Shown here: positions 16,365 to 38,985 of the stretch, one piece after another
Position numbering within the stretch: position 1 is the stretch's first letter
Layout of the letters: each line of letters opens with the position of its first letter
Assembly (NCBI GenBank): GCA_964030785.1
Contig: OZ034968.1
Span: 57,800,899-57,864,898, forward strand
Reading direction: 5' to 3'
Source of the DNA: Siderastrea siderea
Taxonomy: Eukaryota; Cnidaria; Anthozoa; Scleractinia; Rhizangiidae
DNA length: 64,000 nucleotides
The notes under the pieces: generated by a model
Database searches by the model: none
The model's input: only the letters and a program-made list of their open reading frames with translations
Told to the model about the DNA's origin: nothing
Position numbers and translations under genes: made by a program

Positions 16365-16592
16365 TTAGGAAACTTCTGCATCTAGTTCCTCCTTGGTTGC
16401 TAGGAGACACAACTTGTGGATTGGCCTGTCGTATTCACCATCCTGGGTCTTGATTCTGGCCTTTCTGAACAAGCCATCCTTTCCTGGATACGTGACAATG
16501 ATACGCGCCAACTTCCACTGAGACCTTTTGTGGTTCTGATCCAACTCCAAAACTAGATCATCAACGTGAACATTTTCCCTGGTTCGGAACCA
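16365..16592 (-). pseudogene. BEL/Pao pol C-terminus (DUF5641-like)
   Basis: The minus frame encodes a short domain with WKLARIIVTYPGKDGLFRKA and a terminal LCLLATKEELDAE. This matches the DUF5641 tail that follows the integrase in BEL/Pao elements. It is out of frame with the integrase, which ends at 16,593. Confidence 0.75.
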
Positions 16593-17750
16593 CTAGTTTC
16601 GTGGTAACAGATTTGGCGCGAAGTATCGCATCCAGCATTTCCAGAATTCATTGACTCGATCTTGTGTGCTTCTCAGAAGATGTCTGGGGTTGATCCTTTC
16701 TTCGGGTTCTGGTTGAGGTAGTGGAAGATGATGACCTATAAGAATATCGTTCGGTGTGATGGGGGGACTTTCCCAGATGTCATTGGAACTTGGATACAGA
16801 GGACGTCCATTGATGATGTAGTTTGTCTCTGACAGAAATGTTCTCCATTGCTCTTCTGTAAAGGCTTGGTTCTTGCACGTAGCATTGAGACTTTGTCTGA
16901 CAGACTTGATGAGAGTTTCCACGACGCCATTTTGATGACTTGCATGAGGTATGTTCCATTGCCACTTGAAATCGCAACAGAAATCCTCAGGTAGAACACT
17001 TTGAATCTTGGGAATGTTCCAGCTCTGCATAATTTCCTTTAAGTAACCTTGCGCACCTACAAAGTTTGTTCCACGGTCGGACCAACAAACACTCGGGTGG
17101 TCACGCAAGCTCGCGAAACGACGGAACGCCATCAGAAAAGCATCAGATGTCTTGTCGTTTACAAGTTCTAAGTGAACTGCCCTTGTTGTCATGCAGGTGA
17201 ATATTACTACTTGAGCTTCTTTCAGAGTCTTCCGATTGAGTTTAATATGCAAGGGACCAAACATGTCAATGGCGGTGTTGGAAAAGGGAGGGAAACCTGC
17301 TGCCACTCGTAAAGATGGGATCTGCCCCATTAGCTGGTCCAGCGGTTTTTTGCGAAGTTTCCTGCAGGTGATGCACTTTGAAGTGAGGGCTTTGGACATG
17401 CTGCGGACTCCTATAATCCAGTATTTCCTCCTGGCTTCATGGATTAAACTCTTGTATCCACAATGTCCACGCTTGTCGTGCAGGTGGCGCAGTAACAGCT
17501 TGACAAGTAGATGGTCGCGTGGTAGGATAACGGGGTTTCTCATCTTCGAGTCGTCCATGAGCGCGAAGTAGTCCGTTTTCGTCCAGGTTTGGAATTAATT
17601 TCTTGTCAATGACAGAGGGATCTAAGTGTAGTTGACTCCACTTGAAGAGTTGATTCTCAGATTCTTTTAATTCTTGTACGGTGATGGGGCCTGTCTTCGC
17701 ATTCTTTTTACTGGCATTTTGAACGAAACGGCGAACGTAAGCGAGTGTTT
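16593..17750 (-). pseudogene. BEL/Pao integrase
   Basis: The minus-strand frame 17,558-16,593 contains the zinc-binding HHCC region (HLHDKRGHCGYKS...CITCRKLR), then a DDE integrase core: AIDMFGPLHI carries the first D, WSDRGTNFVGA the second, and NGVVETLIKSVR the E region. The upstream residues (GPITVQELKESENQLFKWSQ, near 17,690-17,630) belong to the same polyprotein but in another frame, so at least one frameshift lies near 17,555. It would insert element cDNA into the genome; this copy cannot. Confidence 0.88.
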
Positions 17751-18696
17751 ATCGTATCTTTGGAAATGTTGAGCAGGTCTTCAGTAATTGGTGAAGAATG
17801 GGGTTATCTTCTGACTTGACTCGCTCTAGTTTGACGTTGATTTCTGCTGTGGCTGTTTCGTGTTTTATAGCGTTAACTTCTGCTATGGTTGCTTCGTGTT
17901 TGATGGGCATGTTAGTCTTCTCGGAGGTTTTTGTTTCCATTACGACTTCAGTCTCTTCTCCACGAATACTTTGGTCTTCAATTTGAAACTTGGGCCATTC
18001 GGGTTCGGGCAAGTGGAGGAAAGAGGGTCCCTCTAGCCAATCTGTAAGTCGTGATGGTTCGGTTCCTCTGGTAAGAATGTCAGCGGGATTACTCTTCGAC
18101 CTTATGTAACGGAAGTCATCCACTCCGACAGTTTCATGGATCTCTGCTACTCTCGCTGATACGAAAGGTTTAAATTGCCGTGGTGGGGTCCTTATCCAAG
18201 ACAAGACGGTAGAGGAGTCCACCCAGAAGATTCGTTTGCAATCTTGGATGTTCGCGAACTGCAGTGACGTTCTGCAAGTATCATACATCCTTGCAAGTGT
18301 TAAACAACCCATGAGCTCCAGTCTCGGGATCGTCTTCTTTTTCAACGGGGCAACGAAGGACTTGATCAGGACAGGGACGCACTTGTAACTTCCATTCTTT
18401 AACTCCCATCGGAGGAAAATGACTGCACCGTACGCTTTCTCGCCACCATCACAGAATCCCTGGACTTGCGGTACCCCAACTGCATGACTTGGTTTCAACT
18501 TTCGATCGCATTCGAACGCAAGGAGATGATTCATGGTTTGCACATTTTCCATCCACTTCCTTTGAATGCTCGCTGGCAGGATCTCGTCCCAGCTATCGCC
18601 TGAACTCCACAGTTCTTGTAAGCCGATTCTAAATTTATTGCTACGGGTAACACAAGACCAATGGGGTCCCATAATTTGCCAACAAGACCTAAGCAT
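17749..18696 (-). pseudogene. BEL/Pao RNase H and Peptidase_A17 region
   Basis: The frame holds the connection region, an RNase H-like segment (GFCDGGEKAYGAVIF with its first acidic residue; WVDSSTVLSWI; SKSNPADILTRGTE) and a repetitive lysine/glutamate-rich spacer before the integrase. All are characteristic of BEL/Pao pol. A one-base loss near 18,620 shifts it relative to the reverse transcriptase. Confidence 0.85.
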
Positions 18697-19264
18697 CGTC
18701 TCTTTGTCAGGACATCGGTCAGGCCAAGGTCGTTCTTTTTCAGGGTAAACTTGTCTGTCTGTTTATCCCATCGTAGACCCAGTAGATCTGTTGACCGTTC
18801 ATCGTTAGATTGGTCGATTTCTGTCTGGTTAGAATGCCAAGTTTTAATCTGGAAGTGGCCTTTCTCGAGGATGGCGTCAATGTCGTTGATAATCTGCTCA
18901 GCTTTTGCTGCAGTTGCTCTGGACCCACCGATATCATCCACGTACGCATGGTCTTGAAGTTCCTTTGCAGCTTCCAGGAACTCAGCTTGCGATAACTTTG
19001 CCAGAGTATTGATGGCGTTAGTTGCTATGTCGGGAGCTGGTTTATCACCAAAGTTCAATCTGAGCCATTGATACACAGTTGGTGAATCATTTGTCTTACT
19101 TCTCCACAGGAACCTGTGATAAACTTGATCGTCAGGATGCACCAAGACTTGATTAAACATTTTGCGCACATCACCAGTGAATGCCACTTCGTTCCATCGC
19201 CATGCTGCCAGTACATCGAAGAGGCTGTTGATGAAGTTAGGACCTTTCTCGAGATAATCGTTAA
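18531..19264 (-). pseudogene. BEL/Pao reverse transcriptase, C-terminal part
   Basis: The frame from about 19,260 contains FTGDVRKMFNQV (palm block with catalytic D), LRLNFGDKPAPDIA and the catalytic HAYVDDIGGS. It begins exactly at the TTAA (19,261-19,264) where the Kolobok element is inserted. The N-terminal part of the same domain ends at 32,145. Joining the two across one TTAA keeps the frame open (...DGLSL/NDYLEKGPNF...). Confidence 0.9.
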
Positions 19265-19446
19265 GGGGAAACTATCCCGACAATGCGCACGCGCGAACGT
19301 CATCTGTTATCTTTCAAAAAAAACAATAGAACTGTCAGATTGACGCCACAACATTACCCGCGGCCCGCGCGGTGATTTGCTATGTACATCCTCCATTTTA
19401 AACATTTGCTCGCGTTCTAGCCTCAAAAGTTCGAAAGGAAAGTAAA

Positions 19447-20969
19447 ATGCAATCTCAACAAGACGAGGGCGTCGAAGAGGTTAGTCAAACATTTTGTTAT
19501 GATTCCAATGCTCTTTCCTTTTCATCGATTGCTTGTTTGGTTGATTTTGTCGGCCGCGGTTTTGTAGGAAGAACTGTCATGTCGTTGCAAGTCAACGTGC
19601 TCCACCAAGTCAGGAAGGAAGCGTGTCGGTTGTCCTTGTAAAACTGCAAACCAACAATGTACTGCCCAGTGTAGCTGCGGAACACGGCAAAAGCCATGCA
19701 AGAACAAGGCCACGGTAAGTCTACGGCTCATAATAACCGTCCTCAGTAAGATTATGTCTGAATCGCGGAAATTTACACGAATCGTCGGAAACTGTTATAA
19801 GTTATTCTATCCTAGTCCACAAAAATACACTATAGAGATCACAAATATACCGTTGTCATTCTCACAGACTGAACCTGAACGAAGAGAACCAGATAGGGCG
19901 TCAGAGGACCGAGAAAGAGATCTGGAAAACCAAAGAGTAAAGGTCAGTGAATTTCACACGTGTTGAATAATGTAAACAAAGAAGCTCTCGTTTCCTACAT
20001 ACATTCTGTATTCGATATTTTCTCCTGAAAAAGCGCACTTTATGTCGATCAACGTTAAAATCCTCAGCTAATTATAATTTCAGCAGTCCATTTTACGAAT
20101 ATGCTGATAATTTCTGATCTACGAATATTGAACAGCCTTTTTCCCGCCAGAATGCTACTGTTATTCATCATGCGAGGTTAGACCATTTCGAACCGTTGCA
20201 AGTTTGCTTCACTAGGTAATATAACCGATATTCTGAAAAAAAAAATATATGAAGTTGCCTTCTCTCGAAACCTAGGCTGTCATGACCCTTCCTAATTCTA
20301 AATCCAACAATCCAACAATTTGTTTGGGTCTTTAGGAATTCATCCATACCTTAGACGAAGAGATGGCCAAAAAACTTGCAATTAGAGCACTACAAAGGGG
20401 CGTTGGAAGTATGGATTTTATAGACATGCTCCTCATAATGGAAGATCCAGATGAGTCAAGTGACGAGTCCAATACTACCCCCCTGGCCACCTCTCTTGAA
20501 CCCTCCACATCTACTTCGGGGTCATCTCCTATAGCTCACGGTCATCAGCTTACCCCACTGGCTTCAAATGCAGTTATCCCTCGACCAACTTCTTCCCTGG
20601 AAAATTCACCACAGCCTGTGCCTGAATGGTGTAAATGTGGACAGTGTAGAACCATGCCACAGGAAATCGAAAACAAGTGTTGCAAACAGCGGACCTGCGT
20701 TTCTTTGAGTAGGAGATTCCAGAATCAAACTGTGTCTGGACGCAGAGTACCTTCAGCTCAGTTTAAGAAACACTGCAGATGTCAGAAATGATCGTGATGA
20801 TAATAGTAGCAGGGCTTTTCGCAAGGCTGCCTATCGTCATTTCATACTTGACAAGTATGGCTACTTAAGAAAGAACAAGAGAAAGGTTTGCCCATCTTGT
20901 TGTGTGTTGTCCATCCGACGGCACTACCCTTCTGCGACAGGGGTATACATGGGCTTTAGATCTCACTGA
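19447..20969 (+). CDS. Kolobok accessory gene: CXC domain plus P2X7-like ballast domain
   Basis: Four exons by splice signals, all phase 0: 19,447-19,479, 19,568-19,714 (donor GTAAGT), 19,868-19,942 and 20,336-20,969. Exon 2 encodes a cysteine-rich stretch (SCRCKSTCSTKSG, VGCPCKTANQQC, CSCGTRQKPCKNK) like tesmin/TSO1 CXC domains. Exon 3 is charged. Exon 4 has a helical start, a Ser/Pro-rich linker, WCKCGQCRTMP...CC, then, after a one-base frame change near 20,715-20,735, RNTADVRNDR, SSRAFRKAAYRHFIL, CPSCCV and RRHYPSATGVYMGF. Those blocks are the hallmark of the P2X7 receptor ballast domain. No membrane segment is present. Predicted length is about 295 residues. CXC domains usually bind DNA; a role here is unknown. 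The frameshift may be decay or an allele. Confidence 0.75.
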
Positions 20970-21995
20970 CTGTCCAGATTATGGTTAGCTATTCATTTGC
21001 TTCAAGTTACTCTTTCTTGGGATCCATTAGATGGCACAATTACTTACACAGATGTCAAGTGTGTACATTCAATTCACATATTGGGTGTATGTATTCAACA
21101 CATTGTGTGGCAATTCAATAAATGGGCCTGGTGAGGAGGACAACTGTAGTTCAAAATATCAAAATGGTGGGCTTGCCATTAGCCATTTCACAGTTGTATT
21201 AGCGAACTGGCCTTTGGTAGCGAGGCTTGAGTTGACTTTGTTTCGACACAATCCTTATTGCTTTTCATATAAAGATGTATTCTTGTTGAAATAAATGAGC
21301 GAACGTGATATACACATAAAAAGCAAGGTCTGTACATCAAAACAAAGTCATTTCCAGCCTTGTTTCCTCTAAAAGGCCAGGTCACTAAGCACACTGATAA
21401 TTTTTTACACTACAATTGTCTGTCACTTCTGAACAGTGGAGAACCCCAACCATTTTTTTTTAGAGTTCCCGTATTTCTTCTGATTCTTGAAGGAATAAGC
21501 GCAAGTGACTTGGAGCAAGTCTAAGCTTTAACCCAATGTTGCTATTTATGAGACCACAGGAAATAATGTACAAAGAAAAAAATGCCTGGTTGTGTTTATG
21601 GTGCCTGAGAACATATATCTGAATGTTTAAGAATTGTTACAGGTAGCTTTTAATTTGCCTGATCGAGTTGTTTCCAATAACCCATGATACAAACCGATTT
21701 ACAGCTGTATTGCAACAATTTGTTGCATACAAAAATAAACAAAAGGAAACACTGTCATCCAATTTTCCTAGTTATTTCCATTTCATGGGCTATGTAAAAG
21801 CAATCTACAGGATACAGGTAGTTACACATGACAAATAAAATTGCAAATGAAAGTTTCAAATGAATGAATTCTAACAATTATTATGTGTCCTTCCCAGAGG
21901 AAGACACTTGTATTATGTGTCTTTTTTTATATGGATGCCATTACAATAACCTATTTGCACATTACATTCAGAAAATTTAATTGAATTTAATAAAT
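20970..21995. other. Region between the two convergent Kolobok genes
   Basis: This is presumed 3' untranslated and spacer sequence. AATAAA-type signals for the plus gene occur near 21,115 and 21,287. No coding frame or repeat is supportable. Confidence 0.4.
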
Positions 21996-24900
21996 TTAAT
22001 GCTCATTCCCCTGTGGAAATCTAATGCAGTGCCTCTCATACAGCTCCCTTGATGGCACGGGTGGTGCCTCAGCTATTGTCGGAGCAATTCTGCGTGGGTC
22101 ATCTGCATCCATGGCCACACTCCTTTTTACACCACCTTCATCTTCAGAGCGTAACCTGAACACTTTGGCCATCAACATCCAGATGTACTGGTAATCTTTG
22201 CTCTCTTTCAAAATCTTGACATTCCAGGTTTTGGTTCTTTGATTATATTTCCGTGATACAGATGTCTCTCCGTACATATTCACTGCTGTTTTGGTGTCGA
22301 GATGATAATTCCAATCGATTGCAGCGAGTCGCTTGCGAGCAGTCAAACCCTTTTTCCTATAAGAAAACAGAAATTTAGATGAGAAATCTAATAAGGTACA
22401 TTTTGTATCCACCACATTATTTAAGAAGTCCAATTGACAGCTCATGGAGTCAGATAAAGAGAAGTGATACAACAGGTACCCTATTAGAACTGTGGGTGGT
22501 AAACCAAAGAAAGCCCAGTGGAGATTATGTACACAACCACCCCAATCCCCTTGTGGCTCTGTTCACTTGCTGGAAACTCACGAGGCCCCAACCACAAGAA
22601 GTCCCAGTCTCTTACACCTTGCTTGTAGGTGTTCCCTTTTCTAAACTAATCAAAGTAAAGGATTTTCTTACGTGAATGAATGCCTTTTGCTTGCATACAT
22701 CAGAGACATACTGTTCGCACGATCGAGGGCACCTGAGTGTGTCTGTATAAAAAAGAGAACATAATGCAAATTAAGGGACCCATCATTTATTGGGAGGGGG
22801 GGGACAATCATCAAAGTGTAATCTAGCAAATGCTCTATTGATCACAGAACACTGGTAGAAGTGAAATATTCCTAGCTTTGTTGTCTGCAATATATTGGCA
22901 ATTATCCACACAACTATTGAGCACTAGGTTATGCTTACAGTAATGTTGTTATACAGTATACATGTTGTGGTTCAATATTATTTTGTCCTTGGTTCAATTA
23001 TTTTCTTTTGTTTTTAACTCATTTTCATAGGTTACCATAACAAAAACAAAAGAAAATAAAAATTGAACCAAGGATAAGATTGAACTTATTGGAAAAGGCA
23101 ATTATTTTAATGACCAGCTATCAAATTCCTATTGATCTTCTCTTTGCTTGGATGGTGTGACTATGGCAGCCATGTTGTTACCATTGGTGTGTTTGGAAAT
23201 AAGAAGTTTTGGGAAGTTCATTTCAGAACCAATGTCACTGACTGTGAACCAACTAAATATACCTGAATCTTGTATAATGCTCAAAGCTTTCAAGGAGAGT
23301 TGGTTCAAGAATGACAGCTTGGAGTGCTTCAAAGTCCTTATCGCGTCTGTCGAACCAAGGCAATTCCCTCTCATCTGATGGTATTTCGCCATGGGAACAC
23401 TTTCCTCCAATCCATTCATGCTGGTTACAAACGTGATGGAGTAGAGATATCCACATTTCCTAAAAAAAGATAATACGAATCAGTAGAGTACCAAAATAAT
23501 CGCTTTCAACAATTCCATCAGCAAACAGAGTAGGCATAGTCTGTCTGGGTTGAATGACTGTTGACTAGGAAGGCCCTGTAACATTTACAATGCAATTTCT
23601 ACTACTGAAAATGACAAATGTATTTTAGGAATGCAACCGATGATAAGCAAGCAAGAACTTATACAGAGTACTGAAGGGTTTTCATCAATTATAGAATGAC
23701 CTGATTGGTCACAACAAAATCAACATTCCCAGGAATTTTCTTAGGTGTTGACCTTTTTACTGGACACACTGTAATATTCTCTCCCCATATACCCTTCATG
23801 GACATTTTCTCGTAAAAAAATGGAAAAGATGGCTTATTTTGTTGATGGGGTATACTGATTTTTCCCTATCTTTCATAATTTTAGCAGACTTCCTGTTCAA
23901 AAAATGTTAATTTTATAATTGCAATTAGAAGTGTAGGTGAAATAACTATGGATACCTTCATTCGTCTCAGTGCTAGTTCATCATTTTGTGGCTGTATTTG
24001 GGATGCAGTACTGCAGCAGTGCCAGAAATGCCTGATGATGTGTTCAGACCACTTGTTGATCTTCTCCATGCCTTTTGTACTTCCAACCTATGAATATTGC
24101 AAAACTCACATGCCTACCTTTCAAATATTAAATATTATCATAATTCGGTAAATTGTGATCGTCCGGGTGAGTGTAGTCCTGAGAAGGTCTGTTTGAGGTG
24201 ACATTGATTGACGTTTCGACAACCTGAGCGGAAGTCATCATCAGAGTCAAGTGAACTGTAAATCGTCAGGAGATGTTATAAATCTCTGGTCGTTGTCCTG
24301 ATTGGTCGACGATCTCGTGATGTTATTGGTCGTCTGTCAGTTAAGCCGTGATGTTATTGGCTGTGAAGACTAAACGTGATTGGTGCGTTTCGATCCGTCT
24401 TTTGTTAGTCAAATGTTCGTTGGTCTATTGTTAGTCAAATGAGTCAGTTTGTCTATTGTTTGTCTGTCTTGTTATTGTCGGCAATCAGTCGTTTGTAAGG
24501 TGCAGGTAGCTGTTGGCAACGGTTCAGTGGTGTTTGTTCTAAGTTGGTAAACCAGCTTTCCAGAGTGATTCGTTGATAGTAGTCCGTACTGTAGGTGACG
24601 CATTCAGCAGAGTCCCAGTCGATCCTGTGGTTTGTTTTTAAATGGTGCTCGGCAATGTGATTGTTGATATCACCATTTCTAGTCGCTCGTTTGTGTTCAG
24701 TCAGTCGGACGTTCAGATTTCTGCCGGTCTCACCAATATAAGTGGCCTGGCAGTCGCAGCATTTGATTTTATAAACTGCTCCCCGTCTGTCGCTCGGTTC
24801 GTCTTTGTCTTTAACGTTCGTCAGTAGCTGTCGTAAAGTAGTGATAGGTTTGTGAGCAACGCGGATGTTGTAGGGTTGTAGGATTCGTGCAATAGTTTCA

Positions 24901-27900
24901 GAAGTCCCTTTGATGTAAGGTATGGTTGCAGTAGTGACAGGTGTCGCGTTAGTGTTCGTAGCGTTTGGTTCGGAGTTTCTGTAAGTGTTGTGTCTAATAA
25001 AGTCCCGGTTGTAATTGTTCTTGTTGAAAACGTTGTCTAAGTACTTGTTTTCGTCCGTTAAGCTGTCAGGTGAGTCACAAACTAGTTGCGCGCGTCTTGT
25101 CAGGGTCCGTATAGTCGTAGCTTTGTGAGAAGTTGGGTTGTAAGATGATTGGTCGAGTAGTCTGTCAGTATGTGTCGGTTTTCTGTAAATTGTCGTCCGT
25201 AGTTTGTTATTGTCGCGGGTAACTAAGCAGTCTAGAAAAGGTATTTTACCATTTTCCTCGATCTCCTTAGTAAACTGTATGTCGGCGTTTTGTCCGTTGA
25301 GGTGTTCGTGAAAATCGTCGATTTCGTCTTTGTGTACGGCTGTAAAGGTATCGTCAACGTAACGTAGCCAGAGTGGTAGTGTTCGTTTGTAAGTTGCGAG
25401 GGCTAGTTCCTCGATGTTTTGCATAACGATTTCTGCAACAACAACGGAAACTGGTGAGCCCATAGCTGTTCCGTGCAACTGTTTGTAGTGCTTGCCGTTG
25501 TACTGAAAATACGTAGAAGTAAGACAAAGGTTCAGTAAGTCCATTAAGTCGTCTGTAGGTAGCGGTAGTTCAATAGTAGAGTTGTTGATGGCGGTCTCAG
25601 TGCAGTCTAGAGCCAGTTGAAGTGGAATACTGGTGAACAGTGATTTCACATCAAAAGACACTAGTTTGTAGTCGTCAGGTACTTGTACTGTCTTGATTGC
25701 GTCAAGAGGGAGCTTTCAGAATCAGCCAAGGATAACATCAGAAGTAGAATAGCTTCTACTATACAATCAGCCTCTCTACCTGACAGTAACTTGACTAAAG
25801 ACGAACGACAAGCACTAAAACGACTGAAAACCGACGAAAACATTGTCATACTCCCAGCTGACAAAGGACGAGTGACTGTTGTTATGGACAAGACAGACTA
25901 TTACGACAAAATGGACGCACTTGTTAACGACAAACAGACCTACCAAGTACTTAAACGAGACCCGACGCCAGCACTTCAACGCAAACTTAACAGCAAACTA
26001 CTTGACCTCAAGAAAACTGACGCTATTGACATTCAACGCTACAACAGACTGAGGTGCCGTGTACCACAACCACCGAAACTTTACGGACTACCGAAACTGC
26101 ACAAACCTAACATACCCATGCGACCCATAGTCTCATTCTGTGGGTCCCTGACTTACCAACTGTCCAAATACTTGACTACCGTACTGAAACCTTTCACTGA
26201 CGAATCACGACACAAACTACAGTCGACTGAGAACTTTATTGACGCAATCAAGACAGTACAAGTACCTGACGACTACAAACTAGTGTCTTTTGATGTGAAA
26301 TCACTGTTCACCAGTATTCCACTTCAACTGGCTCTAGACTGCACTGAGACCGCCATCAACAACTCTACTATTGAACTACCGCTACCTACAGACGACTTAA
26401 TGGACTTACTGAACCTTTGTCTTACTTCTACGTATTTTCAGTACAACGGCAAGCACTACAAACAGTTGCACGGAACAGCTATGGGCTCACCAGTTTCCGT
26501 TGTTGTTGCAGAAATCGTTATGCAAAACATCGAGGAACTAGCCCTCGCAACTTACAAACGAACACTACCACTCTGGCTACGTTACGTTGACGATACCTTT
26601 ACAGCCGTACACAAAGACGAAATCGACGATTTTCACGAACACCTCAACGGACAAAACGCCGACATACAGTTTACTAAGGAGATCGAGGAAAATGGTAAAA
26701 TACCTTTTCTAGACTGCTTAGTTACCCGCGACAATAACAAACTACGGACGACAATTTACAGAAAACCGACACATACTGACAGACTACTCGACCAATCATC
26801 TTACAACCCAACTTCTCACAAAGCTACGACTATACGGACCCTGACAAGACGCGCGCAACTAGTTTGTGACTCACCTGACAGCTTAACGGACGAAAACAAG
26901 TACTTAGACAACGTTTTCAACAAGAACAATTACAACCGGGACTTTATTAGACACAACACTTACAGAAACTCCGAACCAAACGCTACGAACACTAACGCGA
27001 CACCTGTCACTACTGCAACCATACCTTACATCAAAGGGACTTCTGAAACTATTGCACGAATCCTACAACCCTACAACATCCGCGTTGCTCACAAACCTAT
27101 CACTACTTTACGACAGCTACTGACGAACGTTAAAGACAAAGACGAACCGAGCGACAGACGGGGAGCAGTTTATAAAATCAAATGCTGCGACTGCCAGGCC
27201 ACTTATATTGGTGAGACCGGCAGAAATCTGAACGTCCGACTGACTGAACACAAACGAGCGACTAGAAATGGTGATATCAACAATCACATTGCCGAGCACC
27301 ATTTAAAAACAAACCACAGGATCGACTGGGACTCTGCTGAATGCGTCACCTACAGTACGGACTACTATCAACGAATCACTCTGGAAAGCTGGTTTACCAA
27401 CTTAGAACAAACACCACTGAACCGTTGCCAACAGCTACCTGCACCTTACAAACGACTGATTGCCGACAATAACAAGACAGACAAACCATAGACAAACTGA
27501 CTCATTTGACTAACAATAGACCAACGGACATTTGACTAACAAAAGACGGATCGAAACGTACCAATCACGTTTACAGTCTTCACAGCCAATAACATCACGG
27601 CTTAACTGACAGACGACCAATAACATCACGAGATCGTCGACCAATCAGGACAACGACCAGAGATTTATAACATCTCCTGACGATTTACAGTTCACTTGAC
27701 TCTGATGATGACTTCCGCTCAGGTTGTCGAAACGTCAGTCAATGTCACCTCAAACAGTCCTTCTCAGGACTACACTCACCCGGACGATCACAATTTACCG
27801 AATTATGATATGACTCCTGGGTTCAAACCATTTACAGTATTAAATATTATATTGTATATTCCAAAGAAGTTAGCCTACAATGTATGAATATACCTGTAGT

Positions 27901-30900
27901 CAACAGCAAGTACTTGACAATGTTAGTTTACTACAACTGGAAACAGTGTTAAAACTTATCAAAGTGGTAGCGAGTTACAGCAGCAGCAGCAGTGCTTGTG
28001 TTTTGGTAAGAGGAATGCTTCTAAAAGTTTCTTAACTACCGGGTACAATTTGCATAGCATTTACTGTAATTCCGAAAAGGAAAAAAAATGCAACTTGGAA
28101 TTACACGAGCTCTGCATGTGCATTAAAACATTCATGCCAAAATTTTCAAGATATTTTAAAGGGTAGCTTCGTTGACTGCAGGAGTAGGCTAGGGTGACAG
28201 TATATTTTACATTTTCCAGCTGGACAGATGCAGTCACTGCTTTAGACAGAGCAGCTGATTGAGTCTACAGCCTACTAGTTTTGAGAATGCTGCATGTTCA
28301 AATATACCAAATAATTATGAGAGTATGTGAATACTATAGTGAAGATATACACACCTTTGAAATACACTTTTTTATACTTTTGGCCTTGTGCCAAATGTCT
28401 AAGGAATGGAACACATCTTTGAACATGGTCGCTTGAAGATAAAAAAAAAATATAGCATATTTAATTTCAGGTGTGTTACACTGTACCCTCTACAATAAAA
28501 ATGTAGTTACTAAAATATTAATTACCCTTAAGAAGAGTTCCAAGTATTTTCACTTCAAAATGTTTAGCAAAATTTTCTGGAACACTGCTTATATACTTGG
28601 CCATATATATGTATTAGAACTGAGGTACTAATAGAGAACCCTGTAGGCAAAATAAAGTAACATAACAAATGGAACATGGACATTTTTTTTTTCAATCCCC
28701 AGTTGGTAGGAGGATCATTGAAAGCTTAACAAGGTGCTAATAATTCTCATAAAAGCTTGTGCCTTACCCATTGCTTTCTTGATACTTGCTGACGCATCAG
28801 TGACAAGCTCGACCAAGTTTAGGAGATCTTTCAACCTTCTCAGAATTTTCAACAGCGCCTCCTTTTCCATGTTTACGGATCTCATCTCGACCTCCCTTTT
28901 ATCCATCACCTCTACATCGATAATATAACTGGTGGTCATCTCCATCAAGAAGTAACACAGATTCTTTGCTGTGAAACCAGGCGAGTCACATTGACCATCA
29001 CCACATACTACCAAAGCTTTATCTTTGAGCTCTTTCAATATTTCACCTTGCTGCCACTGCCACCACTCTGTCACAGCGGGGATGAGATAAATATTTTGGG
29101 CACGGTAGAAGGTGGTGGTGGAGACGAAAGACAGGCCCAGGAAATCAGCAAATTTGGCAATTTTATCATAGTTGTTACCGGACATCAAAATTGCAGCTGA
29201 TGCTTGTAAATTGTTGGCCAGTAGACGGTCACCATCACCTTTGTGAGAGGTACAAAATTTTCCACTGTGCCCATCTGGGCATCTCCATTTAATTAGGGCA
29301 CTAGTCCCACAAAGAGTATAATCAACCATAGTGGGCAGCTGACATTTAGTAGCACGGCATTTCTGTGCAAACAGCTGCACCAGGAGATCCAAGGCACAGA
29401 TCACCTTAGTGCCCTGCACAAGTTTGAGTTCTGGCTGGTAGCAAGGGCTTTCTTCCCAGCGGCTGAACTTCTTTTGTTCCCCAGAAGGCTCTTTTACGAA
29501 TGGGATATGTTGGAGGCCTGGTGCATTCTCTTCTTGTCTAGTTTCATCTTTGCTCATCTCTTGCTGGTTTGTTGAAGCATTTCCACCTGTCACATCATGA
29601 TCACTGACTGTCTCCACCGAAGGAACCTCTAAATAGCCAGACAGCTCAAATTCAGAATTTTCATCCATTGCATCATTTTCAGTGTCTTCCTGTTCCCTTT
29701 TAAATTATAACGTAAAATAACACATTAGATTAATGAGTTACGAATTTCCAAGAATTACAATCCCACCATCTGATAACAGCAAGACAACTTAAATTTAAAG
29801 TACAGGTACCTAAGTTTAAGTTACCTTTTCCCTGAGTAACCACTGTCATAAAACAAACAACTTTTATGAGGTCAAGGGTACAATCATACTACACATCAGA
29901 ATTTTTTTTAATGATATTTACTCACATGTCTAGCATATCTTCCTCATCCTCGCTACTTGATGATGTTTCTTTCTCCCTGTCCTCATCAAGCTCTTTCAGT
30001 GCATCGCTCAGGACTGTAGCATTGCTGTATGTAAATAAGGATAAACAATAAATGAGGCCTGATAACAAGAAGGCAAAAACAAAACACACTTTTTTCTTTT
30101 GTACCTCAACTCTAAAATCTCAGTTGTACATTATAGCTCTCTATGAAGCAAATTAGTAGAGACCAGAACTTGTTGAAAAAATGCAACTCCATTTGAAAGT
30201 GCTTTCAAATAAGTGAGGAATTAAGATTTGGATAATCATCAATATCCAGTACTTACAAGTCCACTTCGCTGTCACTATCAGACTCATCACTTGTAGATGT
30301 ATCATCCTCACTGTTGTCCTCACTCGATGGATCGCTCATGTGGACTGTGGATCCAGTGATATCCACATCTGCCTCAAAACTGTTGTATAATACATTTATT
30401 AAATTAATGGCTGTCCACAAAAAAGTACAGTATTTACAAGCTCATATGGATTATGGACACATATTATTCCTGGAGTGTAATCTTAGGGGATAAGTGACTT
30501 TGGGGGTGTTTACATAGATTGTCACCTTCCATTTTACTTTTCATTGTACATATGGTACAATGTATGTTTTTCTCCCTGTATTTGTTTACACAACAAAGCA
30601 GCACACCACTTTGAGTCATACCAGCAGAAGTTTGCACTGGTTCCGGTACCGGATCGAACTCCTCATCTAATTATGAAAATCTACATCATGTGAAAATGGT
30701 TCTTGCTTCCACGTAGTTGTGACTCTATTGACATACACGATACCAGTGCAAAATCTAATATCATTATGAGACATACCTGTGTGAATTCACCCCACTTACT
30801 GTACCGGTTTGAAATTGTAAAACTGGTTTCATGTAAATTACTCACTGCGAGTGTTCTTTAATTTTGCACAGCAATTGAAGGATGGTTAACATGAACATGG

Positions 30901-31919
30901 TACACAGTTTCACCCCTTATTGGACAATGATAAGACTCTCATACAAAATTATCCTGTATAAAGATGTTTGCAAGAATTAACCTGACAACTCACTACATGT
31001 AGCTGACAAGACAATAAAAGAATTCAATTCAATTTCATTTGAACATGGTAAAATTCATCAGAAAAAAATCATGAGGAATACATAATAACAAAGAATACCA
31101 TCATATATCATACTTTACAAGGTGTAACATATTTATTTTCCTTCAAATTATTCACATGTATACCTCGTTTCCTGAATAGTAATGGGGCTCTGTTCTATCC
31201 GTTCTTGTGCAGTATCAGCCCTTCTTTTCACTGGAGTGGAGGTGATTACGCCTTGTATGAACGAAAATAACTACAATGAGACAGTTGTTGCAATTGAACC
31301 TGATTCTACAAGATATTGGCATTTGTTTATGTTTTGCAGACTTGAGGAAAATGCGTTTCATATTTGTTTCACCACTAAACGATCGGCTAGGATGCTTTAA
31401 AACTGAAATACTAATCCCGAGTATATCACAACCCATCTTAGATCAGAGAAAAGCGAAAAGAACGAATAAAGATCGGAGCTATAGCTTACTATTGCCGTCG
31501 CCTGTTCCATCCTCGAGATCTACATGTACATGCAATTTCCCTCTTGCGGCCATGACAGTCATCCTTCAAAATATTGCAAAAAGAAGCACTTTAGACACAG
31601 CATACATTTACGGTTGTCATAATAATTCAGGCAACATAGGATAAGTGTCTACTACTTCACTTTACCTTGCTCTTCTTCGCATTTCCAGCGAAAGCAAATG
31701 CTGGGCGAAGGCTGTATCGGTCGAATACAGGCACGATCCCTTCAGTCGTTTCCATGTCGCATGGATTGCTTTATTCACATATATCCTGGTATGTTGCTGG
31801 TTCCATTTCTTCTTATTTCTTTCTCGATTTTCTGAGCTTTTCTGGAAGCTGCCGGGAGAAAGAAGCCTTCGACCGGCGCCATAGCGCTTCCCTCCTCTCG
31901 GTCCTCCGTCCAACGGCAT
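21996..31919 (-). CDS. Kolobok transposase, 11 exons
   Basis: Exons on the minus strand: 31,919-31,666; 31,563-31,490; 31,251-31,164; 30,379-30,257; 30,024-29,926; 29,696-28,768; 28,431-28,355; 24,087-23,956; 23,459-23,263; 22,742-22,672; 22,356-21,996. All have GT...AG borders and phases that agree except exon 9/10. Exon 1 has the N-terminal block ending FAQHLLSLEMRRRA. Exons 3-5 are acidic and Ser-rich. Exon 6 holds the catalytic signature CGDGQCDSPGFTAKN and LVTDASASIKK. Exon 7 has LDIWHKAKSIKK. Exon 9 has LLHHVCNQHEW plus a Cys/His pair. Exon 10 has SGALDRANSM. Exon 11 has LTARKRLAAIDWN. These blocks in this order are Kolobok transposase. An extra AC in ACACAC at the start of exon 10 breaks the frame; without it the protein would be about 800 residues. 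Confidence 0.85.
24126..24138. repeat. Target-site duplication of the Penelope insertion, left
   Basis: TATTAAATATTAT directly precedes the element and recurs at 27,838-27,850 after its tail: 13 of 13 bases. Confidence 0.8.
24204..24250 (-). ncRNA. Hammerhead ribozyme motif, left arm
   Basis: Minus strand: TTGACT, CTGATGA, stem II (GAC...GTC with inner CC/GG), GAAACGTC, then AATCAA. It is the same motif as in the right arm with one G-to-A change that breaks one stem I pair. Confidence 0.7.
24453..25661 (-). pseudogene. Penelope-like reverse transcriptase/GIY-YIG, inverted partial copy
   Basis: This 402-codon open frame starts inside the reverse transcriptase (MSFDVKSLFTSIPLQ) and runs through LRYVDDTFTA, KIPFLDC and the GIY-YIG endonuclease YKIKCCDCQATYIGETGRN to the natural stop. 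It lacks the whole N-terminal third, so it is only the inverted 3' half of the element. It ends DKQ, whereas the plus copy ends DKP. Confidence 0.88.
25706..27491 (+). CDS. Penelope-like element ORF (reverse transcriptase + GIY-YIG endonuclease), 5'-truncated
   Basis: The open frame runs about 595 codons from the arm junction; upstream codons (25,683-25,705) are antisense sequence of the inverted copy, so no native start is present. Order: NIVILPADKGRVTVV and RPIVS (fingers, typical of Penelope), VSFDVKSLFTSIP (catalytic D), GTAMGSPVS, LRYVDDTFTA (catalytic DD), IPFLDC, then a linker and the GIY-YIG nuclease KIKCCDCQATYIGETGRN...LTEHK. No stop or frameshift in this span. The Penelope-specific combination of telomerase-like reverse transcriptase and GIY-YIG is clear. 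The missing N-terminus means this copy is not autonomous. Confidence 0.93.
27696..27742 (+). ncRNA. Hammerhead ribozyme motif, right arm
   Basis: TTGACT (27,696-27,701), CTGATGA (27,702-27,708), stem II GAC-UU-CC/GG-UU-GUC, GAAACGTC (27,729-27,736), AGTCAA (27,737-27,742). Stem I pairs 6 of 6. Stem III is the self-complementary ACGT, as in minimal dimer-forming hammerheads. Predicted cleavage follows C27736. Hammerheads in Penelope-like elements are established. Confidence 0.8.
27838..27850. repeat. Target-site duplication of the Penelope insertion, right
   Basis: TATTAAATATTAT, identical to 24,126-24,138. Confidence 0.8.
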
Positions 31920-32148
31920 TGAAAACAACGCCAAAAAATTCCGATCTCAAAGAAATTCCAACTTAACGAAAACTATATATCATTAATCTATATCTGGGAG
32001 AAGCTTCAGGGTAATATTGAACTACTGAGCGCGATGTAAGCGGATTTTTGAAGGTTCTATATCACTTCTCGCATCTTTTGAATTCGCGACATCCTGTCAG
32101 GAAATCAAAGTTTGGAGCATGCGCAGTAACGGGATATTGGTCCTTTAA

Positions 32149-32794
32149 GCGAAAGACCATCGTGACCTTTCGAAGATGAGTCAAAGACAAGTCGAACTTT
32201 TGTGGTCCTTTCTGGCGTGAACACGGCTTGCAGTGGTAGGTACCATTCAGGTTTACCATGATCGATTTGTTCAGGTGGAACCTTTTTCACAAAGTCCTGA
32301 TCCAATAACTTTTGAACTTCTTCGTCAACAACTTTAAAGCAACCCTTTTTTTGGAACGACTTTTCAGAGCGATGTCGTAGTTACTCTGTTTGGGGGGTCC
32401 TGCTTCCTTCCAGGGCATCCTCACTTGTATTCTCCCGTCAACTAAGGTAGTTGAAGCTGCGAGGGACTTTACGAACTTGCCCACGTAACACGTTTTCACT
32501 GCATGTACAGAGTTTGGTTGGTTTGACGCCAAGGAGGTCTTGGTGAAGGAGTTTCTTGATATCCTCTACGATACTTACTGTCCCAACTTCTATTGACCGA
32601 ATTTGAGATGTGGTAGAGCTGTTTGACTCAAACTGTCCCAGAACGTACCATCCAAAACAGTTTCTTTTCGCGATAGGTTCTCCTGGTTCTCCGGACACTG
32701 TGTGGATATCAACGAAAGCTTCTACGAAGTCTGTGCCGATAAGGATATCTATGGCACCACCCGAAAGATGCAGCTTATCAGAAACGTTCTTCAA
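32149..32794 (-). pseudogene. BEL/Pao DUF1758 end and reverse transcriptase N-terminus
   Basis: Reading minus: LHLSGGAIDILIGTDFVEAF and FGWYVLGQ close the protease/DUF1758 region. After frame changes near 32,500 and 32,340 come LLDQDFVKKVPPEQ, WYLPLQAVFTPE and VRLVFDSSSKGHDGLSL, the first reverse-transcriptase blocks. The region stops at the TTAA of the Kolobok insertion. At least two frameshifts make it inactive. Confidence 0.85.
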
Positions 32795-32803
32795 ATGGGT
32801 GTA

Positions 32804-33778
32804 TTATCCCACTAATTTTTTAGAAATTGTTTTGGCATTACTGCAAGGTCTCGTAACAGTGTACACTTGAAGGGTCTTCGTAATATCTTCGTCAGTAGGT
32901 GAGGCAAGCGTGATATCGATTACCTGTGAAGGTTCGTTTTTCTTCTTCCCCCCAGCCAAATTCATAGTGAGATGCGTTGCTGATCCATTTAAGCCAAGTC
33001 GTCTAGCTGTATTTTTGGAAAGTAGGCTGATGTTAGATCCAGAGTCTAACATTGCAAGAACTTCGACAAAGTTTCCATTTCTGTTCATGAGTTTAACTTT
33101 TTGAACAGGGCACAAACCAGTGACAGGTTTTAACTTTGCTTTCTGGTACACAGCATTTCCTTGGATGTTGCCATTCGACGTAGTTGAGGGGCCTTGGAAT
33201 TGACTTTGGAATGGTGCTGCTCTTGGATTCGAATTTGTGTTTGTTTCGCCAGTCCTATCATTATGTAGAGACCGGTGGTGGTTTTTTCTGCATTTGTCAC
33301 AGGTTGAGCCATCTGGTTTCTTGCAATCGTTTGTGTGATGCGCTCTTAGACACTTGCGACGTCGCCAATATTGCTTAACAATCTCCCACCTTTGATTGAC
33401 TGTTAAAAGCTGGAACGTAGGACAGGCAGCCAGATGATGTTTGGTCTTACAGCCAAGTGGACATGCTTCATCATCAGTTTCTTCGCCATTGGCGGCATTA
33501 TTTTCTGTCTTCTTAGGACCCTTGTCCCGGCGACTTTCATTCCTTTCCTCAGAGACGAAGCTCTTTTTGCCTCGGGAGCGAATGCTTGCTTGCTGATGTA
33601 ACCAGGCGATGGGGTTGCTAACAGTTTCTTGTTTCCCTTCTCTTTTCATCTCTCTACCAAAATGTGAATTGTCGTTTGGATTGAGTTTGGACAAAAGTTG
33701 GGACATAAGGAATGGTGCTTCTGAAGACTCTAGCACGAGGCACCCATTATCCTCCATATCGTTTACGTAGCAAGACAC
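32804..33778 (-). pseudogene. BEL/Pao gag C-terminus, zinc knuckle and aspartic protease
   Basis: Cys/His knuckles (CPLGCKTKHHLAACPTF; CLRAHHTNDCKK; CDKCRKNHHRSLH) are followed by the aspartic protease active site AMLDSGSNISLL and LGLNG. The in-frame TAA at 32,804-32,806 follows KKLVG, and the same frame continues straight on (YTHLKNVSDK), so this is one nonsense change in the polyprotein. Confidence 0.88.
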
Positions 33779-33824
33779 TGTTGTGGCGAGGTGTGTAAAG
33801 GACTTGGAATCTCGTCTGACTGGT

Positions 33825-34538
33825 TTAAGACAGGTTTATTTCAGACAGCAATTCATCCATTAATTTTCGTCTGTCTGCGAACTCGGTATCCAAGATGTTC
33901 CAAGCGCTGTCAATGGTTTTACAGGTTTTAACCTGGTCAGTCCACCACGAACCCTTTGGCAATGCGTTTCGGAAACGTTGCAATTGTTCATCTTTATCCT
34001 GACCGTATTTCGTCATCCAATGATTGAATTCCTTTTTCCACTTGGCATAAGATCTGCGACCTCCATCCCATGTTGGCACTGGTAATCGTTGTAGACCACA
34101 TAAGTTTAGTTTTGATCCTAAGGTGTCCGCCATTTTTGCTACTGCTGATGTCATTGATGACATTGATGATGTCAGAGCCTCCAGGGTTTCAGAGTCCTTA
34201 CGAGACGCTTCAGAAGAATTTTGTTCCCTTTGATAAGCAGCAAATTTCAAAGCAATTTGAAGAAAATCCGCCTTGGCCTTGTCTCCAAGTTTTCTGGTCG
34301 TTAAAAAAGGTCCCTCGTCTGTGGCAGCGCCTTCATCAACCAGTTTGTCTAAAATCGTTTCTTGCTGCTTTTTGATTTGCCTATATCTCGTCTCTATTTG
34401 AGTGAATGCTGCTTCAAGTGTTTTGAGTTCTGGTTTTACTGAGAAAATTGTTTCAAATTCCTCCATTAGCTCGTAGAGGATGTTTACGGCGTTTTCCATT
34501 TTTCCTGCGAGGGTTTTGACGTCTACTTTAGGCGGCAT
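33825..34538 (-). pseudogene. BEL/Pao gag (DUF1759-type)
   Basis: The frame begins MPPKVDVKTLAGKM and has a coiled-coil N-terminal part (about residues 20-110). It then has the DUF1759 gag core (LPVPTWDGGRRSYAKWKKEF; LPKGSW; AWNILDTEFAD). It stops after LLSEINLS, and a one-base shift brings back the polyprotein (LKPVRRDSKSF). The start is the first ATG after the presumed leader. It would form the particle of the element. Confidence 0.85.
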
Positions 34539-38746: not shown

Positions 38747-38985
38747 ATTCGGCGTAATCTTGATGAAGATTCAGCGTAAGTTGAGGGCGCGATGATTCAG
38801 CGTAATCTGTGGCAGCTCAACTTGTGATGCGAAGTTCGGCGGTTGTCAATAACTCGATTCGGCGTAATCTTGATGAAGATTCAGCGTAAGTTGAGGGCGC
38901 GATGATTCAGCGTAATCTGTGGCAGCTCAACTTGTGATGCAAAGTTCGGCGGTTGTCAATAACTCGATTCGGCGTAATCTTGGAG
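38747..38985. repeat. 110-bp tandem repeat, about 2.2 copies
   Basis: ATTCGGCGTAATCTTG begins copies at 38,747, 38,857 and 38,967 (partial). Within a copy, GATTCAGCGTAA recurs twice. The copies are nearly identical, so the duplication is recent. Confidence 0.9.

Follow-up and report, generated by a model that had tools for sequence, protein, structure and literature searches.

The Kolobok element and its two convergent genes

In silico analysis of the window (the whole stretch of 64,000 nucleotides examined here, from the coral Siderastrea siderea) revealed a Kolobok element carrying two genes in convergent orientation: a transposase on the minus strand and, on the plus strand, the accessory gene KolX, in which a CXC-like, cysteine-rich exon precedes a ballast domain of the P2X7 type. 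The features of the element are as follows:

19261..19264, TTAA target duplication, left
19265..32144, Kolobok element, 12,880 bp including a later insertion, with TTAA flanks and imperfect terminal inverted repeats
19265..19292, plus strand, left terminal inverted repeat, imperfect, aligned to the reverse complement of the right end (TATCCCG and TGCGCA common to both)
19447..19479, plus strand, KolX exon 1 (predicted), starting at ATG 19447; donor GTTAGT, phase 0
19568..19714, plus strand, KolX exon 2 (predicted), holding the nine-cysteine CXC-like segment at 19580-19705; alignable with relatives
19868..19942, plus strand, KolX exon 3 (predicted), charged linker; the same linker block occurs at locus L057
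20336..20969, plus strand, KolX exon 4, helical part with EFIxTLDE and P2X7-type ballast, placed by PF20478 matches in two frames and by alignments; frameshifted here
20727..20734, plus strand, frameshift site, 4 extra bases relative to intact relatives
21996..24087, minus strand, transposase exons 8-11 (24087-23956, 23459-23263, 22742-22672, 22356-21996)
24136..27810, later insertion within transposase intron 7, with long inverted arms
28355..28431, minus strand, transposase exon 7, DxxH motif LDIWH
28768..29696, minus strand, transposase exon 6, DDE core with GDGQCDSPG and TDASASI; 128 relatives in the genome
29926..31919, minus strand, transposase exons 1-5 (31919-31666, 31563-31490, 31251-31164, 30379-30257, 30024-29926); no THAP found
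32117..32144, minus strand, right terminal inverted repeat, imperfect
32145..32148, TTAA target duplication, right

A preliminary description had placed the KolX gene inside a Kolobok and convergent with its transposase, and this location is borne out by the TTAA on both sides and by a transposase on the opposite strand. The ends of the element, GG at 19265 and CT at 32143-32144, are of the 5'-RR ... YY-3' type that forms part of the Kolobok definition in the available text of PMC9587614. The TTAA target sites at 19261-19264 and 32145-32148 mark an insertion into a BEL/Pao element: the empty site restores the BEL frame, which, after removal of 19265-32144 and one TTAA, is open across 58 joined codons, GHDGLSLNDYLEKGPNF. 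This BEL/Pao-like retrotransposon, named from its frames, occupies 16365-19264 and 32145-34538 on the minus strand and is split at the TTAA.

The transposase is encoded by 11 predicted exons running from 31919 down to 21996, with GT-AG borders and phases that agree at all joins except that of exons 9 and 10. At this join (22672-22742) the frames disagree, reflecting either a small indel or a wrongly placed border. The translated exons contain GDGQCDSPG, TDASASI and DIWH, as expected for the DDD/E + C/DxxH arrangement with the third catalytic residue not placed; a DxxH motif is described for Kolobok in the accessible part of PMC9587614. Comparison with Pfam gave a Mutator-like transposase match at E 3.2e-5 (23.5 bits, below the cut-off of 26.5). 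The protein begins with a basic stretch, and no THAP domain was matched by Pfam at E<=10 in the window transposase, its exons being joined by a model.

Several further observations concern the element and its surroundings. In the insertion at 24136-27810 the inverted arms measure 1335 nt (100%) and 236 nt (99%); both strands carry long frames resembling reverse transcriptase, and it is these frames that suggest a Penelope-like element. The first ~155 bp of the Kolobok (19265-19419) recur at 39 more genomic places with 85-89% identity; among 13 of these end copies that were inspected, TTAA lies just outside in 11 and ATAA in 2, and no second inverted end was found within the flanks of ~1.5 kb. 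Outside the element, a 110-bp unit is present in 2.1 copies at 38747-38982, with 99% matches.

The KolX gene, its ballast and its transposase partner

All borders of the four predicted KolX exons are GT-AG, the three introns are each of phase 0, and exons 1-3 share one frame with the start of exon 4 (20336). On the strength of the ATG at 19447, these borders and the phase-0 introns, the gene is real and has four exons as first described, its splicing being predicted. The earlier statement that it is phase-consistent fails in exon 4, where the Pfam family PF20478 matches in two different frames: profile positions 53-118 in the first (E 7.1e-8, 33 bits) and 115-192 in the second (E 1.3e-13, 51.8 bits), both above the cut-off of 23.5. 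The junction at profile positions 115-118 corresponds to 20727-20734, where the intact relatives P0002, P0003 and P0005 have a single codon and a frame open throughout, and where the nearest genomic copy reads through as RRFQKLCL. With its 4 extra bases, the window copy therefore carries a frameshift in a gene that is otherwise conserved, and it would be a decayed member of a putative THAP-less lineage. The KolX body of this copy has a single close relative in the 831-Mb genome, with 84% identity; the one other close copy, on the window's own contig (C3:2083348-2084854), is eroded and has internal stops.

The assignment of exon 4 to a P2X7-like ballast, also made in the preliminary description, holds. 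In addition to the PF20478 matches, a profile of 18 relatives (the window read-through included) retrieved P2X7 chains first from the PDB, at E 1.2e-16, and an alignment of 58 relatives shows eight cysteines conserved in 90% or more of them. With PF20478 above cut-off in both halves of exon 4, the gene shows the KolX accessory protein characteristic of the Kol0 lineage. Its best named matches come from the stony corals Montipora foliosa, Acropora millepora, Porites lobata and Oculina patagonica; no relatives were found in the contigs of IMG/VR or GTDB, and no P2X channel was found in the KolX gene.

This half of the gene is already known. According to the available text of Kojima and Bao (2022), KolX of Kol0 Kolobok has a ballast fold resembling the P2X7 C-terminus, P2X7 and Nanor derive from KolX, and P2X7 is proposed to be a fusion with KolX (PMC9587614). 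The ballast of Kolobok KolX and the origin of P2X7 from it have thus been on record since 2022, and the suggestion of a transposon-borne ballast independent of the receptor, proposed in the same source, gains support from at least 150 ballast matches in the genome (the best 150 of 411, all above the family cut-off and many paired with a transposase). The window KolX shares with the published one its status as a Kolobok accessory protein and its ballast, and differs from it, as far as the accessible text goes, in the CXC-like exon in front. A ballast with conserved cysteines is likewise common to the window KolX, the P2X7 cytoplasmic ballast (PF20478) and the Nanor/ZCD proteins; in the available text of PMC7016195, ZCD proteins are typically without other conserved domains, apart from two mite exceptions with TolA and THAP, and the word CXC does not occur there. 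The same text places the P2X7 ballast in one exon, exon 13. One exon also holds the ballast of CXC-type KolX (in the window, and from protein P0008 compared with L057). At the two THAP-type loci inspected, L084 and L085, the ballast is divided among several exons, its pieces falling in different reading stretches.

The association of KolX with the transposase extends over the genome. With the transposase core exon as query, 128 matches were obtained. A convergent KolX lies within 12 kb of 60 of them and a tandem one near 4; no divergent pair occurs, and for 64 no KolX is listed, against 0.55 expected by chance; for the best 50 transposase matches the figures are 38 convergent and 12 with none listed. 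In the opposite approach, 59 KolX or CXC loci with ~1.5 kb of flank, several of them close copies of one another, yielded a transposase piece in 20, downstream and convergent in all 20. At L079, a locus of another family, TTAA and identical inverted repeats of 16 bp enclose the CXC-like segment, KolX and pieces of a convergent transposase, some of which contain stops. The six loci L024-L029 have near-identical CXC segments, and one of them is likewise bounded by TTAA plus identical 16-bp inverted repeats and has convergent transposase exons.

These data bear on the reading that the Kolobok harbours the gene by chance, either as a passenger or as a domesticated host gene. The single close relative of the KolX body (84%) would suit it, as would a group of six KolX-like PF20478 loci at C1:28,742,189-31,385,663 with no listed transposase nearby. 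Against it stand the convergent pairing across families, seen in 20/20 informative loci, the near-identical segments of L024-L029 and the locus bounded by TTAA and inverted repeats. The reading is very improbable and was rejected, being contradicted by the genome-wide pairing of KolX with the transposase. The six C1 loci themselves lie on one strand within 2.6 Mb, match an equal range of the profile and have no CXC among the matches listed; they are possibly duplicated, domesticated KolX.

The nine-cysteine segment

Exon 2 encodes the pattern C-x-C-x3-C-x10-C-x-C-x6-C-x3-C-x-C-x6-C-x-N. This nine-cysteine pattern has one match in the six frames of the window (19580-19705) and none in 100 mononucleotide shuffles. 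The CXC superfamily has been defined by Zheng et al., in the part of the paper available, by nine cysteines, an asparagine two places after Cys-9 and the spacing formula CX[C/H]X2-13CX4-7CXCX5-60CX2-4CX1-2CX2-15CXN (PMC3447885). Nine cysteines in the CXC order, with the asparagine two places past Cys-9, are present in 22/22 distinct variants, which were collected with a pattern requiring the nine cysteines and the asparagine (53 of 60 loci matched it). The full formula fits 0/22, because the interval from Cys-3 to Cys-4 is 8-11 residues and not 4-7; the other intervals fit. The net charge of the 22 variants is +6 to +11.

Profile searches gave the P2X7 C-terminal family above cut-off and nothing above cut-off for Pfam CXC, so that only the ballast half of the pair proposed in the preliminary description was recovered in this way. 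The Pfam tesmin/TSO1 CXC model does not match the window segment at E<=10, and the CXC segment alone, from five relatives and as 14 variants, retrieved nothing above cut-off from Pfam or the PDB. Below cut-off, TCR was matched by 3/14 variants (best E 0.54) and preSET_CXC by 1/14 (E 0.68); the unrelated family NIR_SIR scores better in the same search, at E 0.023. The sole PDB sequence match, a rhamnose-binding lectin at E 0.13, was taken as chance. In pairwise hhalign comparison, the second EZH2 repeat reached a probability of 59%, with a score attained by 0/50 shuffles of either kind, followed by LIN54 CXC-2 at 19% (1/50 shuffles with fixed cysteines reach the score) and LIN54 CXC-1 at 0.5%, no better than shuffles; the order of EZH2 before LIN54 was repeated in another comparison. 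The minor-groove tyrosine described for LIN54 CXC in the available text of PMC4974476 is missing in 22/22 variants, which have G, S, A or R before Cys-4 instead, the place being read from the LIN54 sequence. As to the Zn3Cys9 fold of the CXC superfamily, an AlphaFold2 model of the CXC segment alone (pLDDT 66.7) found no PDB match by Foldseek, and hence none by VIA-align; the model of P0008 has a pLDDT of 55.

With the profile cut-offs and the full published spacing not reached, the tyrosine missing and the Foldseek search empty, the segment is called CXC-like here rather than a member of the CXC superfamily. The original CXC label stands for the number and order of the cysteines and for the signature asparagine, and fails on the profile cut-offs and the complete formula. 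Compared with the CXC domains of EZH2 pre-SET, MSL2 and LIN54/tesmin, as far as these are covered by the available sources, the KolX segment is alike in its nine cysteines in the same order, its C-x-N end, its shortness and its basic character; it differs in the longer Cys-3 to Cys-4 interval (8-11), in the absence of a LIN54-type tyrosine, in being single and not tandem, and in remaining below profile cut-offs.

One alternative is that the segment lies outside the CXC superfamily and is a zinc or metallothionein-like cluster that KolX evolved independently. The unmatched formula, the sub-threshold TCR and preSET_CXC scores exceeded by NIR_SIR, the lack of any CXC chain in the PDB sequence searches and of a structural match for the model are all in its favour. 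It is unlikely. Against it, the nine cysteines in CXC order, the other intervals and the C-terminal asparagine fit in all 22 pattern-selected variants and the EZH2 comparison beats every shuffle.

The preliminary description proposed that the segment and the ballast form a pair, and this pair is present at other Kolobok loci of the same genome. A CXC-like exon precedes KolX at every one of the 30 best-scoring KolX loci, with the intact nine-cysteine pattern at 25, by exon search at 4 more and in frameshifted form at 1 (L018). The 49-residue exon used as query gave 102 matches in the 831-Mb genome. In 81 of these a same-strand KolX follows within 3 kb, at a median distance of 322 bp, where chance would give 0.03 pairs. 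None of the remaining matches has KolX nearby in another layout; 21 are without KolX among the best 150 of 411, one of them being the second close copy, whose KolX is decayed. Conversely, a CXC match lies upstream of 82 of the best 150 of 411 KolX matches, a count made with the window exon as query, which misses short-form variants. The gene is therefore not absent from other copies, an absence that had been named beforehand as an argument against the pair.

At the protein level, at least 7 of the 120 matches listed of 173 have all nine cysteines before KolX (P0001, P0003, P0004, P0008, P0014, P0015, P0099), and three more of those listed (P0009, P0017, P0020) hold the end of the segment; absence from the others means little, because many start inside exon 4 or are short contig predictions. 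All parts share one frame in P0008, and L057 aligns to this protein in three collinear blocks with introns between, a layout therefore read as a spliced gene. In distinct copies of equal length, chosen by the cysteine pattern and thus biased towards intact ones, dN/dS is below 1 in 25/25 pairs (0.05 < dS < 1.5), with a median of 0.11.

A CXC-like segment in KolX or Kolobok was not found reported in the open-access literature, as far as its text was available, and the terms "CXC" and "cysteine-rich" are absent from the main text of PMC9587614. The claim that the pair is undescribed in Kolobok hence falls for the ballast and stands for the CXC-like part, which these results suggest is the new element of the finding.

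THAP, the CXC-like exon and the possible role of KolX

A THAP domain for DNA binding is usual in Kolobok transposases, those of Xenopus among them (PMC6004289, available text). The window transposase resembles these in its Kolobok-type DDE core and differs in having no detected THAP, and its KolX has a CXC-like exon that is missing in the THAP class, which also occurs in this genome. Using the best 150 of 860 THAP candidates, a same-strand THAP was located no more than 6 kb upstream of 38/128 transposases; where present, it lies 0.8-2.5 kb upstream of the transposase core. Among the matches listed, the 61 transposases with a convergent KolX comprise 0 with both THAP and CXC, 13 with THAP only, 30 with CXC only and 18 with neither; at least 7 of these 18 do hold a CXC-like exon at the KolX locus (six in the short form, one past the 12-kb limit) and pass to CXC only. 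In any orientation, a listed THAP match lies within 12 kb of 1/102 CXC matches.

Inspection of 5' regions gave the same division. The nine-cysteine pattern occurs in 0/7 KolX 5' regions of THAP-type elements (7 of 13 inspected); in 6/7 the ballast frame has an upstream ATG followed by an acidic stretch, and the ballast start was not found in the seventh. In the 5' regions (2.5 kb) of CXC-type transposases, a C2CH pattern within one open frame was present in 0/4 and a Pfam THAP in three frames in 0/3 (L083 left out), a search that could miss an intron-split THAP. In similarity to the window transposase, those with THAP come 52nd or lower; the split between THAP and CXC therefore follows ancestry and may represent a single event. 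The Fisher value of 5e-5 is not to be relied on, as its calculation counts related copies as if they were independent. One coral genome thus seems to hold two Kolobok classes, one without detected THAP and with a CXC-like KolX, the other with THAP and a short KolX without CXC.

Since the CXC-like KolX goes with transposases seemingly without THAP, KolX may do part of the DNA recognition. We tentatively prefer to read the gene as an accessory gene, KolX, belonging to a THAP-less Kolobok lineage, with the CXC-like module serving in DNA or chromatin binding; the CXC domains of MSL2 and LIN54 bind DNA, according to the available text of PMC3447885 and PMC4974476. The transposition machinery would then have KolX as its second subunit. 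Contact with the element ends or the target chromatin, which THAP would provide in the other lineage, would fall to the CXC-like module where THAP is lacking, and the helical and ballast parts may serve assembly. The missing LIN54 tyrosine and the unreached CXC cut-offs and spacing speak against a recognition role, and DNA may be bound by the N-terminus of the THAP-less transposases themselves.

The last point belongs to a further alternative, in our estimate not much less probable than the preferred reading, in which the module is a structural zinc cluster or one for protein or chromatin contact, like the EZH2 pre-SET CXC, and DNA is recognised by the basic N-terminus of the transposase and not by KolX. 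The hhalign preference for EZH2 repeats over both LIN54 repeats agrees with it, as do the lack of the tyrosine and the basic stretch with which the window transposase opens; the strong positive charge of the segment argues against it, together with the fact that the CXC-like exon is not listed wherever THAP is present.

The literature on KolX, in its available text, gives no role for this protein. As the P2X7 tail is proposed to come from KolX, a putative nucleic-acid-binding module that seems to alternate with THAP hints at the function of KolX. With more reserve than for the preferred reading, it is conceivable that in one large lineage of coral Kolobok DNA recognition moved from a THAP transposase to a CXC-like KolX, making a two-protein transposase, and that P2X7 carries the tail of a transposition cofactor. 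Judging from the pairing in this one genome, many coral proteins labelled "P2X purinoreceptor 7 intracellular domain" may be transposon proteins and not relatives of the receptor.
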